In this document: in pieces, positions 52,770 through 63,738 of the stretch | Layout: every line of letters starts with the position of its first letter | Numbering within the stretch: position 1 is the stretch's first letter | Assembly: GCA_001462345.1 (NCBI GenBank) | Contig: LIUM01000041.1 | Location: forward strand, 1 to 64,000 | Direction of reading: 5' to 3' | DNA: 64,000 bases | Source: Fibrobacteria bacterium AD312 | Lineage (GTDB): Bacteria > Fibrobacterota > Fibrobacteria > Fibrobacterales > Fibrobacteraceae | The notes under the pieces: model-generated | What the model was told of the DNA's origin: nothing | Seen by the model: the letters and a program-made list of their open reading frames with translations, nothing else | Database searches by the model: none | Made by a program: the position numbers and the translations under genes

Positions 52770-55700
52770 TTATACCGTTTGTGATTTAAAATGACCTTGA
52801 TTTATTAAAAAACCTCCCAAATCACCACCTTCTGGACCTAATTCGACATTCCAATCGGCTAAACGAATGATTTCTGGATGATGTTCTATAATAATCACGG
52901 TATGACCGCGGTCAGAAAGTCGCCTAAACATGTTCCAAAGGATTTGAATATCTTTCAAATGGAGCCCCGTGGTAGGTTCATCAAATAGGTAAATAGTCTC
53001 ACTTTTTTCTTTAACCGAAAGTTCTGCCGCTAATTTCATTCGTTGGGCTTCGCCTCCTGAAAGAGTGGTTACCGACTGCCCTAGTCTTAAATAAGAAAGA
53101 CCGACTTCAGAAAGTGGTTTAAGAAGCGAAACAATTTTATCTTGATCCTTAAAAAATTCACAAGCTTCATCAATACGAAGATCTAGGACATCTGCAATGT
53201 TTTTACCCTTAAAAAGAACGGATAGTGTCTCTTGATTATAACGCTTCCCTTCACAAGCCTCACAAACTTCCCAAACATCTGATAAAAAGTGCATTTCCAC
53301 AGAAATAGCGCCACGCCCTTCACAAACAGGACAACGGCCTCGCGCCACATTATAACTAAAGCGACCAAGATCAAAGCCCTTCATTTTAGACTGTTCCATT
53401 TTAGCAAAAAGCCGACGAATAGGATCTAAAGCCCCCGTATAACTTGCTGGAGTGGATCTCGGGGTTCCAGATAAAGGCGATTGATCAACGACAACGACAT
53501 CCACCAAGCTCTGGCGACGCCCTCTAGCACCAAATTGTTTTTTCAATTCAGGTAAAATACAATCCATCACTAACGTACTTTTGCCCGAACCAGAAACTCC
53601 TGAAACAACCGAAATCTTCCCTTTAGGAATACGAACATCTATGTTTTTTAGATTATTCTTGGAAAGGTGATTAAACTCATAAAAAGGAGTTTCGTCTGAA
53701 ACAACCTCTGGCGTGTTTTGATTATGAAGAGGCGTTTTTGAGGTAAGATATCGAACCGTTTCACTTCTTGGATAAAGAGTCAGTGCATTTTTCTGAGATA
53801 ATTTTTTAGGAGAACCTTCGGCAACAATTTCTCCTCCATATTCCCCAGCGCCAGGGCCCATATCAATAATGTGATCTGCTGCCCGCATCATTTCTAAATC
53901 ATGTTCTACAACAACTAACGTATTCCCTAAATCTCTTAGTTGATAAAGAGTGGAAAGAAGTTTTTGAGTGTCATTTTGGTGTAAGCCAACGGTAGGCTCA
54001 TCTAACACGTAAAGAACGCCCTCTAAACCACTTCCAATTTGACTCGACAAGCGAATCCGTTGCGCCTCGCCTCCTGATAAGGTATCCCCTGTTCTAAATA
54101 GGCCTAAGTAACCGAGCCCAACATTTTTAAGAAAGTCTAATCGGCCGAGAATTTCTTTTAATAACGGGTCTGCAATCTTAGCGTTATCTTGTGTAAAAAT
54201 GCGCTCCGCAAACCAATCTCTTGCCTTTGAAATACTCATCGAAGAGACTTCCATGATATTTTTTTCGGCGATGCGTACATTCAAATACTCTTTCTTTAGT
54301 CGCATGCCATGGCATTCTGGGCAAATCTTCTGCGAATCCTCTATGCCTAGCCCCAAACAACGAGGACAAGCGCCCCAATGGGTATTAAAGCTGAAAAATT
54401 TAGGATTAAGTTCTTGCTCAAAATACCAGTCGCAAGAATTACAACCAGGCAACAAGGAGAATAAATGCCGTTGATTCGACTCCCCTTCGAGAATCACTTT
54501 CCCTTGATTTTCTTTATAAGCGATTTCAATCGCTTCGACTAATCGTTTTTTATTTTTTTCATTGACGATCACGCGATCAATCTGGATATATTCTTTATTC
54601 CCTGAAGTCTTCTTCTTATAGCCTTTCTCAAGCATGGCCTCCAATTTATGAGTAGAATGATGATCACTCAATAAGACATGCACCATTTGATTCTTAAAAT
54701 GTTTAAGTGCAAAATGAGAGACTTCTGCAACACTAAAAGATTGAAGAGGCTTTCCACAATGAATACAATGAGGAATTCCTAATCTAGACCAAAAAATTCT
54801 AAAGTAATCATAAATTTCAGTGAGCGTCGCGACTGTACTTCTCGGGCTACGGCTCGAACTCCCTTGATCTATCGCAATCGCTGGAGCAAGGCCTGTGATA
54901 GAATCAATATGCCCGCGATCTAGTCGCCCTAAAAAGCGGCGGGCATAAGCGCTTAATGTTTCTACAAAACGGCGTTGGCCTTCTGCAAAAAGCGTATGAA
55001 AAGCAAGGCTCGATTTACCAGAACCCGAGACTCCTGTAATCACTGTAAGTTGGTGCCTTGGGATTGTCACATCAAAATTTTTCAAATTGTGTTTTCTAGC
55101 GCCATGGATTTGAATGTCTAAAGAAAATGAATCCTCAAAAACAGATTTAGAACTCTTTTTATTTTGAGCCCATGTTTCTCCTTTGAGAACTGGAGCTAGA
55201 AAGCGACCTGTCATCGATTTTTTATTCTTCGCTATTTCTTCTGGAGTACCCGTAGCTACTAAATACCCACCAGCGTCTCCGGCTTCTGGCCCTAAATCAA
55301 TAATCCAATCGGCGCATTTAATCACGTCTAGATTATGCTCGATCACCACAAGACTATTCCCTAAACTACGCAATCGATTTAAGCAATCTAGTAAGCGATG
55401 GATATCTTCAAAATGAAGCCCTGTGGTAGGTTCATCTAGTAGATACAATGTTTTTCCTGTACCTGGACGACGAAGCTCTGCACTTATTTTAATACGCTGT
55501 GCTTCGCCTCCAGAAAGAGTCGTAGAAGGTTGCCCTAATTTTAAGTAGCCAAGCCCAATTTCTTGTAATAGTTTTAATGGTTCTACAATCTTTGGAATCG
55601 ATTCAAAAAAGACACAAGCCTCGTCGACACTCATTTCTAAAACGTCATAGATATTCAGGCCTTTATAATAGACCTCAAGTGTAGCTTCATTAAAACGTTT

Positions 55701-57953
55701 CCCATCGCAAAATTCACAGGGGATTTCTACGCTTGGCATAATCTGCATATCGACCGTTTTAACGCCAGCCCCTTCACACATCTCACAACGCCCTCCAGGG
55801 ACATTAAAACTAAAACGGCTTTTAGTATACCCACGCACTTTACTTTCTGGTAAAGAAGCAAATAGATCTCGAATCGAATCAAAAATTTTCGTGTACGTGA
55901 CAGGATTGGAACGAGGTGTTCTTCCAATAGGTGTTTGGTCTATTTCTATGACTTTATCAATATGCTCTAAGCCTTCTATGCGGTCAAATAAACCAGGTTC
56001 TTCTTCGGCGTGGTGAAAATAGCGAGCGAGTTCACGGCGTAAAATATGATTCACTAGAGAGCTTTTTCCAGAGCCTGAAACCCCTGTCACTACAGTAAAC
56101 GCGCCATCTAATGGGATCGAAACGTCGATATTTTTTAAGTTGTTTTCTCGTGCACCGTAGATGGTTAAAAAAGGCGTTTTGGAATCGATTCGTTTTCTTT
56201 TTTGAGGAATATCAATCTTCTTTTGACCACTAAGATAAAGCCCCGTAAGTGATTTTTTATTCTTTTCTAATTCTTCTGCAGTGCCCACGGCAATCACTTC
56301 ACCGCCTTTGACACCAGCACCAGGCCCAATATCAATCACACAATCAGCCCGTCGCATAGTTTCTTCATCATGCTCCACGACAATTAAGCTGTTCCCTTGC
56401 GCGCGAAGGTGTTCTAAAATATCTAATAGCTTTTCATTGTCTCTTGGATGTAAGCCAATACTTGGTTCATCTAAAACGTATAAAACGCCTTGAAGCCCAG
56501 CCCCCACGGCTCCTGCTAAGCGAATGCGTTGGGCTTCCCCACCCGAAAGAGTGGCAGAACTTCTAGAAATATTAAGATAGCCAAGCCCTACGGCTTCTAG
56601 AAAAGAAAGCCTGTTTTTAATTTCTTTGAAAATTTCTTTTCCAATATGTTCTTCACGAGGAGTGTATTTTTGTTCCTTAAAAAACTTTACCGATTGATTC
56701 ACAGACCAGCTACTCAAATCTTGAATGCCATAACCATGAAAACGAACCGCATTGGCTACAGGATTTAAGCGCGACCCGTTACAAGTATGGCAAATGCTTT
56801 CATGCATGTATTTTTTAAAAAGATGAATATGCCATTTATCCCATAGTTCTTGCATTGTTGGCACCACACCTGAAACTTTTTTGGATGGGGGTCCGTAAAG
56901 AATGGCCTCTTGTTGGTTTATAGAAAGAGACTCCCATGGAGTATCAAGAGAGAACTTCATCTCTTTGGCAATTGCTTTTAAGTCTGACCAACCAAACGAA
57001 GAAAAAATGATATCACCATCTTTTTTTTGAGGCGCTAATGCCCCTTTCTTTATAGATAATGAAGGGTTTGGAACAATCAGTTCTTTTGTAAATTGATAAT
57101 TTCGCCCTAAGCCTTTACAGGAAGGGCATTGCCCTTGAACATCATTAAAAGAAAATAAACGAGGCTCGAGTTCAGGGATTGAAATACCACAACTCACACA
57201 AGCGAGTTCTGTGCCCTGAAGCAAATACTTGGATTCATTAAATAAAAAAGAAACGAGTTTTCCTTCTGTTAAACGGAGCGCGCCTTCAATGGCCTCACGA
57301 ACACGAGAAATATTCTTTTTAGATAAATCTAACCGATCAATAACGACTTCGATCGTATGCTTTTCATAACGCACTAATAAAGGAATATCTTCTAAACGAT
57401 AAATAACCCCATCGACTCGCGCACGAATAAAACCATTGGTTTTTAGATCTTCAATTTCTTTACGATACTCACCCTTACGTTCTTGGACAATCGGCGCCAT
57501 CACTAAAAGAGAACTGCCCTCATCTTCAGAATAAAGTTGGTCCACAATTTGATCTACAGATTGAGCCTCAATTTTCTTTCCACATTGAGGGCAATGAGGC
57601 ACGCCTAATCGCGCAAAAAGCAACCTATAATAATCCATGATTTCAACAACGGTACCGACAGTAGAACGAGGATTTCTGTTGACTGTTTTTTGATCGATAG
57701 ATATAGTAGGAGAAATACCGCGTACACTTTCGACCTCTGGGCGTTTCATGCTACCAATAAATTGACGCGCATATGCCGAAAGAGAATCTAAAAAGCGACG
57801 CTGCCCCTCTTGAAAAATAGTGTCAAAAGCAAGGCTCGATTTCCCTGAACCAGAAACACCTGTGATTACCACAATGGAGTCTCTTGGAATAGTCACATGA
57901 ACATGTTTCAGATTATGTTCATGGGCGTCGCGAACCACCACCGAACGAGTCAT
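52770..57953 (-). CDS. uvrA: UvrA, tandem-fused double-length excinuclease ATPase
   Basis: UvrA is the damage sensor of nucleotide-excision repair and normally works as a dimer of ~940-residue subunits. This protein has 1727 residues and contains two complete UvrA halves. Four P-loops are visible (GVSGSGKSSLAFD, GVSGSGKSSLVNH, GVSGSGKSSLAFH, GVSGSGKSTLVMD), four LSGGEAQR signatures, and zinc-finger Cys pairs in both halves (for example CHTCNGSRL, CEMCEGAG/CEFCDGKRF, CPECHGMRL, CPVCEGRG/CEACEGKRY). The second half begins at about residue 930 (IQIHGARKHNLKNFDVTIP). A covalent dimer follows. A promoter lies at 58041-58069. Confidence 0.95.
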   Translation of the reverse strand: MTRSVVVRDAHEHNLKHVHVTIPRDSIVVITGVSGSGKSSLAFDTIFQEGQRRFLDSLSAYARQFIGSMKRPEVESVRGISPTISIDQKTVNRNPRSTVGTVVEIMDYYRLLFARLGVPHCPQCGKKIEAQSVDQIVDQLYSEDEGSSLLVMAPIVQERKGEYRKEIEDLKTNGFIRARVDGVIYRLEDIPLLVRYEKHTIEVVIDRLDLSKKNISRVREAIEGALRLTEGKLVSFLFNESKYLLQGTELACVSCGISIPELEPRLFSFNDVQGQCPSCKGLGRNYQFTKELIVPNPSLSIKKGALAPQKKDGDIIFSSFGWSDLKAIAKEMKFSLDTPWESLSINQQEAILYGPPSKKVSGVVPTMQELWDKWHIHLFKKYMHESICHTCNGSRLNPVANAVRFHGYGIQDLSSWSVNQSVKFFKEQKYTPREEHIGKEIFKEIKNRLSFLEAVGLGYLNISRSSATLSGGEAQRIRLAGAVGAGLQGVLYVLDEPSIGLHPRDNEKLLDILEHLRAQGNSLIVVEHDEETMRRADCVIDIGPGAGVKGGEVIAVGTAEELEKNKKSLTGLYLSGQKKIDIPQKRKRIDSKTPFLTIYGARENNLKNIDVSIPLDGAFTVVTGVSGSGKSSLVNHILRRELARYFHHAEEEPGLFDRIEGLEHIDKVIEIDQTPIGRTPRSNPVTYTKIFDSIRDLFASLPESKVRGYTKSRFSFNVPGGRCEMCEGAGVKTVDMQIMPSVEIPCEFCDGKRFNEATLEVYYKGLNIYDVLEMSVDEACVFFESIPKIVEPLKLLQEIGLGYLKLGQPSTTLSGGEAQRIKISAELRRPGTGKTLYLLDEPTTGLHFEDIHRLLDCLNRLRSLGNSLVVIEHNLDVIKCADWIIDLGPEAGDAGGYLVATGTPEEIAKNKKSMTGRFLAPVLKGETWAQNKKSSKSVFEDSFSLDIQIHGARKHNLKNFDVTIPRHQLTVITGVSGSGKSSLAFHTLFAEGQRRFVETLSAYARRFLGRLDRGHIDSITGLAPAIAIDQGSSSRSPRSTVATLTEIYDYFRIFWSRLGIPHCIHCGKPLQSFSVAEVSHFALKHFKNQMVHVLLSDHHSTHKLEAMLEKGYKKKTSGNKEYIQIDRVIVNEKNKKRLVEAIEIAYKENQGKVILEGESNQRHLFSLLPGCNSCDWYFEQELNPKFFSFNTHWGACPRCLGLGIEDSQKICPECHGMRLKKEYLNVRIAEKNIMEVSSMSISKARDWFAERIFTQDNAKIADPLLKEILGRLDFLKNVGLGYLGLFRTGDTLSGGEAQRIRLSSQIGSGLEGVLYVLDEPTVGLHQNDTQKLLSTLYQLRDLGNTLVVVEHDLEMMRAADHIIDMGPGAGEYGGEIVAEGSPKKLSQKNALTLYPRSETVRYLTSKTPLHNQNTPEVVSDETPFYEFNHLSKNNLKNIDVRIPKGKISVVSGVSGSGKSTLVMDCILPELKKQFGARGRRQSLVDVVVVDQSPLSGTPRSTPASYTGALDPIRRLFAKMEQSKMKGFDLGRFSYNVARGRCPVCEGRGAISVEMHFLSDVWEVCEACEGKRYNQETLSVLFKGKNIADVLDLRIDEACEFFKDQDKIVSLLKPLSEVGLSYLRLGQSVTTLSGGEAQRMKLAAELSVKEKSETIYLFDEPTTGLHLKDIQILWNMFRRLSDRGHTVIIIEHHPEIIRLADWNVELGPEGGDLGGFLINQGHFKSQTV

Positions 57954-58207: not shown

Positions 58208-58435
58208 TTATAAGCTTCTAATTTCTTTTTCGGAAAGGCCAGAAATTGAAACAATATCAATCAAAGGAAGTCCTTTCAAAAGCATCGCTTTGGCCATTTC
58301 GCGCTTATTTTGCTCAATACCCTGCTCAATGCCTTGTTCTATGCCCTGCACAATACCTTGCTCAATACCTTGTTTTATTCCGTCGTCTTTTCCTTCGAGG
58401 TATGAGCTTTCTTTCTCGTATGCAATGTTCGTCAT
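58208..58435 (-). CDS. Stand-alone RpnS-like small protein (duplicated Rpn C-terminal domain)
   Basis: A 75-residue frame starting MTNIAYEKESSYLEGKDDG, which is almost the same as the last 71 residues of the Rpn nuclease next to it. It has six GI(K/E/V)Q units where the full gene has five, and substitutions at the end (SEKEIRSL against SEEEIKSL). Its Shine-Dalgarno sequence GAGG is 8 bp before the ATG. In E. coli, small RpnS proteins made from internal starts inhibit the full-length Rpn nuclease. Here the same segment exists as a separate downstream gene, so it may be a second inhibitor; it could also be a decaying duplicate. Confidence 0.65.
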   Translation of the reverse strand: MTNIAYEKESSYLEGKDDGIKQGIEQGIVQGIEQGIEQGIEQNKREMAKAMLLKGLPLIDIVSISGLSEKEIRSL

Positions 58436-58540
58436 TTCATCTACCTCACATAATAAGAGTTCATTGGAATACCCTTTTAAAGATACATCTTTCGCGAAGT
58501 CTTTTTGAAAAAGACTTATTAAACATCCTTCAGAAAAAAG
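58208..58540. repeat. Direct duplication of the Rpn gene 3' end
   Basis: This segment parallels about 58544-58865, that is the last ~100 codons of the Rpn gene, in direct orientation. Similarity begins just after the stop codon of the full gene (TTTTCTGAAGGATG corresponds to ATTTCGGAAGACCG inside the gene) and continues to the duplicate's own stop. The upstream third of the copy is more diverged than the part after the internal ATG, and the copy carries one extra 12-bp unit. Confidence 0.85.
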
Positions 58541-58543
58541 TTA

Positions 58544-58759
58544 TTACAAGCTTTTAATTTCTTCTTCAGAGAGGCCAGAAATTGAAACGATATCAATCAA
58601 AGGAAGTCCTTTCAAAAGCATCGCTTTGGCCATTTCGCGCTTATTTTGCTCAATGCCTTGTTCTATGCCCTGCACAATACCTTGCTCAATACCTTGTTTT
58701 ATTCCGTCGTCTTTCCCTTCGAGGTATGAGCTTTCTTTCTCGTATGCAATGTTTGTCAT
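58544..58759 (-). CDS. Intragenic RpnS (in-frame internal start within the Rpn gene)
   Basis: The in-frame ATG at 58759 has GTGAGGT upstream, with GAGG 8 bp from the ATG. The predicted product is 71 residues: MTNIAYEKESSYLEGKDDG, five GIxQ units, then the conserved C-terminal helix. This is the region produced separately as an inhibitory small protein in E. coli Rpn systems. The Shine-Dalgarno sequence and spacing are conserved in the duplicated copy at 58435. Translation is inferred, not shown. Confidence 0.6.
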   Translation of the reverse strand: MTNIAYEKESSYLEGKDDGIKQGIEQGIVQGIEQGIEQNKREMAKAMLLKGLPLIDIVSISGLSEEEIKSL

Positions 58760-59509
58760 TTCATCTACCTCACATAATAAGATTTCATCGGAGTACCCTT
58801 TTAAAGATACATCTTTCACAAAGTCTTTGTCAAGAAGACCTCTTAGACGGTCTTCCGAAATATCATCATCTTCAAGGACAGCCCGAAAAAGGCGAAGCAT
58901 ATCGGCTCTTGTAGACTTTTCTTGATTTTCAATCGGTGTGCGGTCTTCGATATTGAAAAACTTCTCGAGTTCTACAAAATACACGTCTAACTTGTCGTAA
59001 AAATGATTTTTGTTTCTAACGACCTGCGTTCGGTGAAAATACGTGTCTTTTTCGAGAATAAATTGGTCTTCCGTTAATATTGAAAGAACATAAATATGCG
59101 GAAGTTGATATTTTTGAGACTTCTTCACCGTTCTTGAGATGACTCTCGATGTATAATAGATAAGACGATCGGCAAATAGTTTGTCTGCATTTTGCTGAAC
59201 CTCAATCAAAACGGGTTCACCAGACTGAGTGATGCCATAAACATCAAAAATCGCCGTTTTATCGTTCAAGATCCCAGGATTCTCTTGCACGCCAAGCGTA
59301 AATTTCGTGATCGCTTTTGAACCCTCGAGCCCGAGCATTGCATTCAAAAATTTGATTGTGCGTTCTGGTTTAGCTTCGTTTGCCATTAGCAGTTTGAAAA
59401 TACCGTCGCTGAATGGGTAAACGTTCTTGAAAACTTTTCGGTATTCGGCAAGCCTAGCTGGGTTAGCCTTCACATCCTTAGCCATGGCTATGAACTGACT
59501 TCTATTCAT
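58544..59509 (-). CDS. Rpn-family recombination-promoting nuclease / PD-(D/E)XK transposase-like protein
   Basis: A 321-residue protein. The N-terminus (YPFSDGIFKLLMANEAKPERTIKFLNAML) and the nuclease core are typical of Rpn/PDDEXK_2: FDVYGITQSGEPVLIEVQQ supplies the catalytic Asp and the E-x-Q pair, followed by RLIYYTSRVISRTVKKSQKY. The C-terminus contains five GI(K/E/V)Q repeats and the helical end LLKGLPLIDIVSISGLSEEEIKSL. Rpn proteins are DNA endonucleases with toxic and phage-defence activity. The ATG follows AAGGGAGGAAAAG, a strong ribosome binding site. The gene has an internal start (listed separately), and its promoter carries several palindromes. Confidence 0.9.
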   Translation of the reverse strand: MNRSQFIAMAKDVKANPARLAEYRKVFKNVYPFSDGIFKLLMANEAKPERTIKFLNAMLGLEGSKAITKFTLGVQENPGILNDKTAIFDVYGITQSGEPVLIEVQQNADKLFADRLIYYTSRVISRTVKKSQKYQLPHIYVLSILTEDQFILEKDTYFHRTQVVRNKNHFYDKLDVYFVELEKFFNIEDRTPIENQEKSTRADMLRLFRAVLEDDDISEDRLRGLLDKDFVKDVSLKGYSDEILLCEVDEMTNIAYEKESSYLEGKDDGIKQGIEQGIVQGIEQGIEQNKREMAKAMLLKGLPLIDIVSISGLSEEEIKSL

Positions 59510-59554: not shown

Positions 59555-59671
59555 TTTAATATATTAAATGCACTTTTGTGCAGTAATTAATATAATAAGA
59601 CTTTTTGAAAAAGTCAAGTAATGAAGATTTTTCTATTTGAATATAAATTTTAAAAATGACAATTTTTGTCA
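59555..59671 (-). promoter_or_regulatory. Rpn promoter with four perfect palindromes
   Basis: Minus-strand promoter TTGACT (59617-59612), 17-bp spacer, TATATT (59594-59589). A perfect inverted repeat GACTTTTT-G-AAAAAGTC (59599-59615) fills most of the spacer and overlaps the -35. TGCAC-tttt-GTGCA (59569-59582) lies at the expected transcript start, directly abutting TTTAATATATTAAA (59555-59568). TGACAA-ttt-TTGTCA (59657-59671) is upstream. These are natural operator candidates. Confidence 0.65.
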
Positions 59672-59776: not shown

Positions 59777-60232
59777 TTAAAATACGTAACGCACGTCCAA
59801 AAGCAGGGAGCCACCAGTGCCACCTCCGAATACAGGAGCAAACGTCATGAAGTTTAAGCCCCAGTGATCGTTGAAATCCCAGTTTACCCCGAGTGCCAAT
59901 TCACCACTGGGATCTCCAAAAGAAACGACATTTAAAAGAGTAGCACCAATAATAAAATGAATGTGGTTTCCGCCTAAATAAAATAGAATTGGCATACGAA
60001 TGTACATAGAATGATACCCCTGCCACATTAAGCCCAAAGTCTGATAAATACCATTTTCTTGACTTAATCGAACTTTCATGCCAAGGCCGAAATCAAGAAG
60101 ACCTGCATGTAAGAAAAAAGAAGTTATAGGACGTTCTGAACAAGTCTGAATGGCGGGCGTTGACGCTGTTTCTGCAAAAGAAATAGTGGAGCATAAAAAT
60201 AATGCAATAAAAAATATTTTCAGTTTTTTCAT
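59777..60232 (-). CDS. Small outer-membrane beta-barrel-like protein, paralogue 1
   Basis: A 151-residue protein with a signal peptide (MKKLKIFFIALFLCSTISFAET) and amphipathic strands typical of small barrels (SFFLHAGLLDFGLGMKVRLS, YQTLGLMWQGYHSMYIRMP, FYLGGNHIHFIIGATLLN, LALGVNWDFNDHWGLNFM) ending in the aromatic residue of LLLDVRYVF, as outer-membrane proteins do. It is closely related to the protein at 63256-63738, and the leader DNA is conserved too. The promoter is TTGACA (60318-60313), 18-bp spacer, TATATT (60294-60289). Confidence 0.75.
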   Translation of the reverse strand: MKKLKIFFIALFLCSTISFAETASTPAIQTCSERPITSFFLHAGLLDFGLGMKVRLSQENGIYQTLGLMWQGYHSMYIRMPILFYLGGNHIHFIIGATLLNVVSFGDPSGELALGVNWDFNDHWGLNFMTFAPVFGGGTGGSLLLDVRYVF

Positions 60233-63255: not shown

Positions 63256-63738
63256 TTAAAATACGTAACGCACGTCTAAGAGCAATGAAGCCCCGTTGCT
63301 AGAAGGAAAGCTCACGGGAGTGAACATCATGAGATTTAGACCCCAATGCTTATTGAAATCCCAGTTGATGCCAAGCCCAGCTTCACCATTGGTGTCTCCA
63401 CTTGAAACGGCATTTAACAGGGTAGCTCCTGCAATAAAATGGATGTGATTTCCACCAAAATGAAACAGGAGTGGGATACGAATGTATTGAATATGAAACG
63501 CCTGCCACATGAGTCCCAAAGTGGCATAGACGCCATTTTCTTTACTTAAACGGACTTTCATACCAAGACCCAGGTCAATAAAACCAGCATGTAAGAAAAA
63601 GGAAGTTCTTGATTCTTCTTCGGAATTCTGAGTAGTTACCGTTGAATTATGTGAAGAGGCCATTACATCCCCTGTGTCTGCAAAACAGGTGACGGAACAA
63701 AGGAATAAAGCGATTAAAAATATTTTCAGTTTTTTCAT
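63256..63738 (-). CDS. Small outer-membrane beta-barrel-like protein, paralogue 2
   Basis: A 160-residue paralogue of the protein at 59777-60232. The signal peptide (MKKLKIFLIALFLCSVTCFADT) and the barrel part are conserved (SFFLHAGFIDLGLGMKVRLS, GLMWQAFHIQYIRIP, GGNHIHFIAGATLLNAVS, GINWDFNKHWGLNLMMF, LLLDVRYVF), with a longer variable insert after the signal. Its leader is nearly identical to that of paralogue 1. The local duplication includes the promoter region, so both copies are likely expressed in the same way. Confidence 0.75.
   Translation of the reverse strand: MKKLKIFLIALFLCSVTCFADTGDVMASSHNSTVTTQNSEEESRTSFFLHAGFIDLGLGMKVRLSKENGVYATLGLMWQAFHIQYIRIPLLFHFGGNHIHFIAGATLLNAVSSGDTNGEAGLGINWDFNKHWGLNLMMFTPVSFPSSNGASLLLDVRYVF

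Follow-up and report, generated by a model that had tools for sequence, protein, structure and literature searches.

A likely antitoxin gene nested within an Rpn-family nuclease gene of Fibrobacterota, with its own predicted promoter, ribosome binding site, and start codon

Does the 3′ end of an Rpn-family nuclease gene in Fibrobacterota also encode a separate small protein? The question arises at a locus in the first 64,000 nucleotides of contig LIUM01000041.1 from Fibrobacteria bacterium AD312, a stretch referred to here in its entirety as the window. Genes-within-genes that encode a nuclease (RpnL) and a small internal product (RpnS) have been demonstrated experimentally by Zhong et al. in E. 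coli (RpnA-E and RpnP2) and C. difficile; RpnS blocks its RpnL, and RpnA-S was shown to block RpnA-L (PMC10327210). The first-pass annotation had proposed the same design for the window and had described its host as Fibrobacterota-like. The host indeed belongs to the same family as genomes with contigs named Fibrobacter, and the design is supported by a Shine-Dalgarno (SD) sequence and start codon that are frozen across homologues; production of the small protein and neutralization of the nuclease we infer from the work in E. coli and C. difficile (PMC10327210). We are confident in reading the locus as a toxin-antitoxin gene-within-a-gene of the Rpn type, composed of a nuclease, RpnL, and an internally expressed RpnS. 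A second, separately expressed small gene almost certainly lies within the nuclease gene, because just the letters of a putative promoter, ribosome binding site, and start, and hardly any others, are synonymously frozen in well over 100 relatives from the phylum. By analogy with the characterized systems, the embedded gene is likely the antitoxin of the nuclease. The features of the locus are as follows:

58544..59509, minus strand: rpnL, Rpn-family PD-(D/E)XK nuclease of 321 aa (open reading frame, PF12784, and TIGR01784)
58829..58833, minus strand: putative -33/-35 element TTGAC, codons L226-D227 (1 synonymous change per codon in 52 homologues, median 9)
58803..58809, minus strand: putative -7/-10 element TATCTTT (TAnnTTT), codons V234-L236 (0, 0, and 1 changes at codons 233-235)
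58768..58771, minus strand: internal SD GAGG, formed by the E247 codon GAG and the G of V248 (GTA) (G-ending codon 247 in 69/69)
58544..58759, minus strand: embedded rpnS, predicted 71-aa C-terminal product from the ATG at 58759 (start conservation and fold/profile match to 7TH0)
58436..58537, minus strand: vestigial upstream part of a downstream copy, about codons 218-250 (TATCTTT and GAGG kept, TTGAC lost)
58208..58435, minus strand: stand-alone rpnS-like copy of 75 aa with 6 repeats (first in-frame start is the equivalent ATG)

The full-length gene is itself preceded by a strong SD, GGGAGG. Its product passes the TIGR01784 cutoff (72.6 bits against 52.1), and its main nuclease match is PF12784 (PDDEXK_2; E=8e-29). 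PF04754 (Transposase_31/YhgA-like) scored 17 bits on this protein, below the cutoff of 21. Judged by these profiles, the window gene is an Rpn of the PF12784 type and not of the YhgA type, which distinguishes it from the E. coli and C. difficile systems. Residues D89, E103, Q105, and K84 are invariant among 47 homologues, and PD-(D/E)XK nucleases were among the best, though weak, matches in a fold search with the whole model. The sole PADLOC match at the locus was a “putative invertase” resembling the Rpn tail.

The in-frame ATG at 58759..58757 corresponds to M251 of the 321-aa frame and is preceded by GTGAGGT (58773..58767, minus strand), giving the spacing GAGG-N8-ATG, exactly where the first-pass annotation had placed an internal start. 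That annotation had also named the informative comparison, conservation of the SD and ATG at synonymous sites, and the signal passes it. Among Fibrobacterota Rpn genes, 69 could be aligned across the site; the paralogues L004, L005, and L014 from the same genome could not be aligned at the internal start and were left out of the count, and the L005 subfamily was analyzed separately. The GAGG hinges on a single synonymous choice at codon 247, GAG versus GAA. GAA, the more common Glu codon elsewhere, never occurs there: the codon is G-ending in 69/69 homologues (67 GAG and 2 CAG) and in 43/43 nonredundant sequences, compared to 10 to 77% in all other columns with at least 15 Glu/Lys/Gln codons. 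A tree of the upstream gene portion implied no change at this codon, compared to a median of 9.5 over 38 comparable columns, and an independent degenerate-pattern scan of 168 genomes returned 54 instances of GAG and 0 of GAA. The internal start codon is ATG in 68/69 homologues and GTG in the other, such that the single Met-to-Val substitution still leaves a start codon; likewise, the two Glu-to-Gln substitutions at codon 247 retain AGG. When synonymous codons were shuffled within the 69 genes, an SD preceded the internal start in 20.9 ± 3.6 of them (maximum of 34 in 300 runs), whereas 67 were observed, and at any other in-frame start of the gene the count was at most 9. Because no 16S 3′ end turned up in this assembly, pairing with the anti-SD is an assumption. 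Selection on the internal start is about as secure as sequence allows.

The first-pass annotation was right about the internal SD and start and overlooked a candidate promoter upstream of them. Synonymous positions were ranked without prior assumption. In the close clade (52 homologues, 150 columns), at most one synonymous change was found only at codons 226, 227, 233, 234, 235, and 247, against a median of 9. The frozen codons outside the SD spell CTTGAC (226-227) and GATGTATCTTT (233-236). Codon V234 is GTA in 52/52 sequences (33/33 nonredundant), even though GTA is a rare Val codon in the family. In the window, TTGAC and TATCTTT lie within 58833-58803, with 21 nt separating TTG from TA. The same layout, TTG-N20/21-TAnnTTT, was found at shifted positions in three separately aligned Rpn subfamilies. 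In a far clade (56 homologues with 30 to 39% identity to the window protein), 4 of 289 third positions show 0 changes (median 14), and the unchanging positions fall in TTG, the T of TA, TTT, and GAG. The layout in that clade is TTG-N20-TAnnTTT[G/A], nearer the ATG, and TAnnTTT is held although the encoded residues vary (S/I/C/T and N/I/K/T). Among 30 sequences of the canonical TIGR01784 subfamily, just 2 of 292 third positions are unchanging (median 8): that of TTG and, 20 nt further on, that of the T of TA. The putative promoter is thus frozen there as well, with less uniformity in the SD and start.

The Bacteroidota promoter consists of -33 (TTTG) and -7 (TAnnTTTG) elements (PMC8748976). The frozen elements fit this -33/-7 layout and are also sigma-70-like, with the caveat that the consensus is that of Bacteroidota and may not be the host's; our literature search returned no published promoter consensus for Fibrobacter. 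Its use in Fibrobacterota draws modest support from an enrichment of TAnnTTTG upstream of other window genes (10/30 versus 4.2 in shuffles, though 7 in antisense). Several homologues carry the TTGAC...TAnnTTT layout 5′ of the rpnL start itself as well. Thus, we regard TTG-N20/21-TAnnTTT as a putative internal promoter for a short mRNA, whose predicted leader, from a few bases past TATCTTT to the ATG, is about 36 nt. All five E. coli rpn genes contain an internal transcription start (PMC10327210). A conserved putative internal promoter of the FCB type in Fibrobacterota is a difference from the E. coli and C. difficile systems and goes beyond the published accounts found in a search of the literature outside supplements and most subscription papers.

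The duplicate directly downstream of the nuclease gene (58208-58537) repeats codons ~218 to the gene end. The first-pass annotation had cited it as evidence that the signal is conserved while the flanks diverge. Both statements are correct: GAGG and ATG are identical, and upstream there are 7 mismatches in the 72 nt before the ATG, and more further out, compared to 9/216 from the ATG onward. The evidence was nevertheless overweighted, because gene and copy share 96% identity from the ATG onward and the identity of the SD and ATG alone says little. What had gone unnoticed is the character of the duplicate as a stand-alone rpnS-like gene with an extra repeat: its equivalent ATG (58435) is the first in-frame start codon, and it has one additional 12-bp GIEQ unit relative to the upstream gene. 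After the ATG, the gene and copy differ at 2 of 172 nonsynonymous and 7 of 44 synonymous sites; in the 24 codons before the ATG, they differ at 5 of 59 nonsynonymous and 2 of 13 synonymous sites. The nonsynonymous rate is therefore ~7-fold higher before the ATG (P = 0.012, from small counts) at equal synonymous rates, which fits a small gene beginning at the ATG.

The same differences bear on whether the copy is instead a decaying pseudogene fragment without a role, a reading that we consider quite possible, if somewhat less probable than a functional small gene, and that would leave the embedded start unaffected. Most of the upstream frame is gone from the copy, as is the -33 element (TTGAC changed to TTCAA), and the copy may be recent; on the other hand, its frame is open from the ATG with few nonsynonymous changes past that point, and other stand-alone rpnS genes occur elsewhere. 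In E. coli, rpnE and rpnC also carry a second rpnS downstream (PMC10327210). Like rpnE/ypaA (stand-alone RpnE-S) and the downstream rpnC-S, the window's second C-terminal-domain copy lies directly after rpn and is closest to its own upstream gene; unlike them, it is one repeat longer than the upstream gene's. Because one added repeat abolished neutralization in RpnC (PMC10327210), the window copy may not act on its neighbor.

The predicted product of the embedded gene resembles characterized RpnS proteins. It contains five four-residue units (GIKQ GIEQ GIVQ GIEQ GIEQ) starting 18 residues past M251; in the known family such repeats start 8 to 20 residues past the internal Met (PMC10327210). 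The near-identical homologues L090, L091, and L093-L096 have RpnS lengths of 66, 66, 70, 74, 78, and 82 aa, in steps of 4. In an AlphaFold2 model (mean pLDDT of 81), the internal Met is followed by a long helix (254-299) and two short ones. Foldseek matched this part to E. coli RpnA-S (7TH0) with a probability of 1.00, 0.8 Å over 42 columns, 38% identity, and a TM-score of 0.86 of the target; the whole-protein E value is not significant, because only a small part aligns. The hmmsearch profile match to 7TH0 had an E value of 9.5e-4. At the single locus outside Fibrobacterota, L066 (Bacilli), the match is confined to the C-terminal repeats.

These matches suggest that the 71-aa product is the antitoxin of the nuclease. 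It could instead be a separately made structural or assembly subunit, or a regulator, since the function is assigned from homology to the RpnS C-terminal domain and the remainder of the small protein is variable. We consider this improbable, in that the fold and architecture match RpnA-S, known to block RpnA-L (PMC10327210), and the repeat number varies as in the known family. Under the antitoxin reading, the long frame would yield the nuclease RpnL, and the promoter in the 3′ third of rpnL (TTG-N20/21-TAnnTTT) would yield a short mRNA whose ~36-nt leader bears GAGG and the ATG at 58759. Translation of this mRNA would produce the 71-aa RpnS, with three helices and four-residue repeats, which would keep the nuclease inactive by binding the matching domain of RpnL, possibly in the service of phage defense. 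The duplicated downstream rpnS would supply a second version of the small protein with one more repeat.

Stand-alone rpnS genes with identical SD and ATG recur elsewhere in Fibrobacter. In one orthologous set (L138/L142/L143) and in L141, rpn homology starts a few to about 15 nt before TTG, which indicates that the preserved unit comprises the putative promoter, SD, and rpnS. Other loci suggest exchange. The nuclease parts and downstream flanks of L046 and L050 align at 88 to 89% identity, and L050 contains a 189-bp insertion with an embedded RpnS body that is new relative to L046; the RpnS type embedded in L046 stands in L050 about 25 nt past the stop, where it has a GAGG and an ATG of its own. 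L024/L049 shows the same displaced-RpnS arrangement. In L137 (G076:C26), the gene directly after a TIGR01784-type rpn is a stand-alone rpnS with SD and ATG whose product belongs to the window's subfamily; the two are apparently a mixed, noncognate pair. As a separate observation, the rpn at L145/L064 (G131:C26) has a nuclease frame that is broken near the 3′ end, and the SD-ATG-rpnS unit past the break is intact.

We tentatively propose, short of considering it probable, that Fibrobacterota Rpn loci are antitoxin-cassette exchange systems in which RpnS bodies enter at the SD-ATG segment, the old RpnS stays downstream, and free rpnS genes form a repertoire. If so, a new RpnS body would switch the specificity of RpnL and RpnS simultaneously, the old RpnS would persist downstream with its own SD as a noncognate small antitoxin, and dispersed units of promoter, SD, and rpnS would protect against, or tune, other Rpn nucleases; the window's copy with one more repeat would be an early stage of such divergence. 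In CDI/Rhs polymorphic toxins, the old immunity module is left behind downstream when the variable 3′ end is exchanged. The likeness to these displaced or orphan immunity modules is one of operation only; the proteins are unrelated, and the part swapped in Rpn is the antitoxin domain itself. The downstream copies reported previously group with their own upstream gene (PMC10327210), unlike some Fibrobacterota downstream RpnS that appear noncognate and displaced by a new cassette; such cassettes are likewise beyond the accounts that we found, supplements and most subscription papers lying outside the search.

Since RpnS cassettes are swapped beside the frozen segment (L046 versus L050) and the exchange homology covers the SD-ATG, the frozen letters might constitute a DNA element, such as a recombination or protein-binding site used in cassette exchange, and not expression signals. 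This is very unlikely: the letters are discontinuous and spaced like a -33/-7 promoter, SD, and start, GTG is tolerated for ATG, and the -7 element moves between clades yet keeps its -33 partner. That the SD and ATG are by-products of the conserved residues E-V-D-x-M, with the small frame untranslated, is hardly credible, for although Met and Glu-Val are conserved and GAGG costs only one synonymous choice, that choice is G-ending without exception where other Glu/Lys/Gln columns vary, no GAA counterpart occurs in 168 genomes, Gln in place of Glu leaves AGG intact, a frozen putative promoter stands at the right distance, and stand-alone rpnS genes exist.

With the antitoxin reading preferred, the locus would join the RpnL/RpnS kind as a further member. 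It shares with the E. coli and C. difficile systems a nuclease C-terminal domain with an internal start of its own (here predicted from sequence), four-residue repeats 8 to 20 residues past the Met, a three-helix RpnS fold, and, downstream of some genes, an additional stand-alone rpnS; the putative internal promoter would correspond to the internal transcription start of those systems. In-frame starts that yield a C-terminal domain as a separate subunit are also known from Cas10d/Cas11d and other internal translation starts (PMC10327210), although those proteins are unrelated to Rpn. Conservation alone sufficed to recover the whole embedded gene, comprising putative promoter, SD, and start, both in a further phylum and across diverged Rpn subfamilies, a result that supports the generality of the Rpn design. 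A scan for frozen synonymous sites could reveal other genes within genes without ribosome profiling, and cassette displacement and repeat-number mismatch offer a testable handle on the evolution of RpnL/RpnS specificity.

Several further observations concern the surroundings of the locus. A palindromic core, CTTTTTCAAAAAG, occurs at window positions 58501-58513 and 59601-59613. One copy, in the rpnL promoter region, stands between TTGAC and TATATT; the other sits exactly where the downstream rpnS-like copy lost TTGAC. The 2.83-Mb genome holds just four exact copies, and the two positions may therefore reflect shared regulation or a trace of recombination. A mobile-element or hairpin reading was set aside, as the palindrome was not seen 5′ of rpnL in the homologue upstream regions that were checked. 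Elsewhere in the same genome, several more Rpn C-terminal tails (L002-L013; C40:167626-168205, C13, C44, and C36) lie at or near contig ends, some adjoining masked stretches, and repeat-rich rpn tails may break the assembly. In the upstream flank of L083, the first 15 codons of rpn and the SD region appear as a tandem duplication ahead of the gene. In the window, the rpn locus is directly followed on its downstream side by a 1,727-aa open reading frame (52770-57953, minus strand) that reads as two tandem-fused UvrA-like ABC proteins. The region is flanked by two small, similar signal-peptide proteins (59777-60232 and 63256-63738, both minus strand), which both begin MKKLKIF.IALFLCS and are apparently paralogues.
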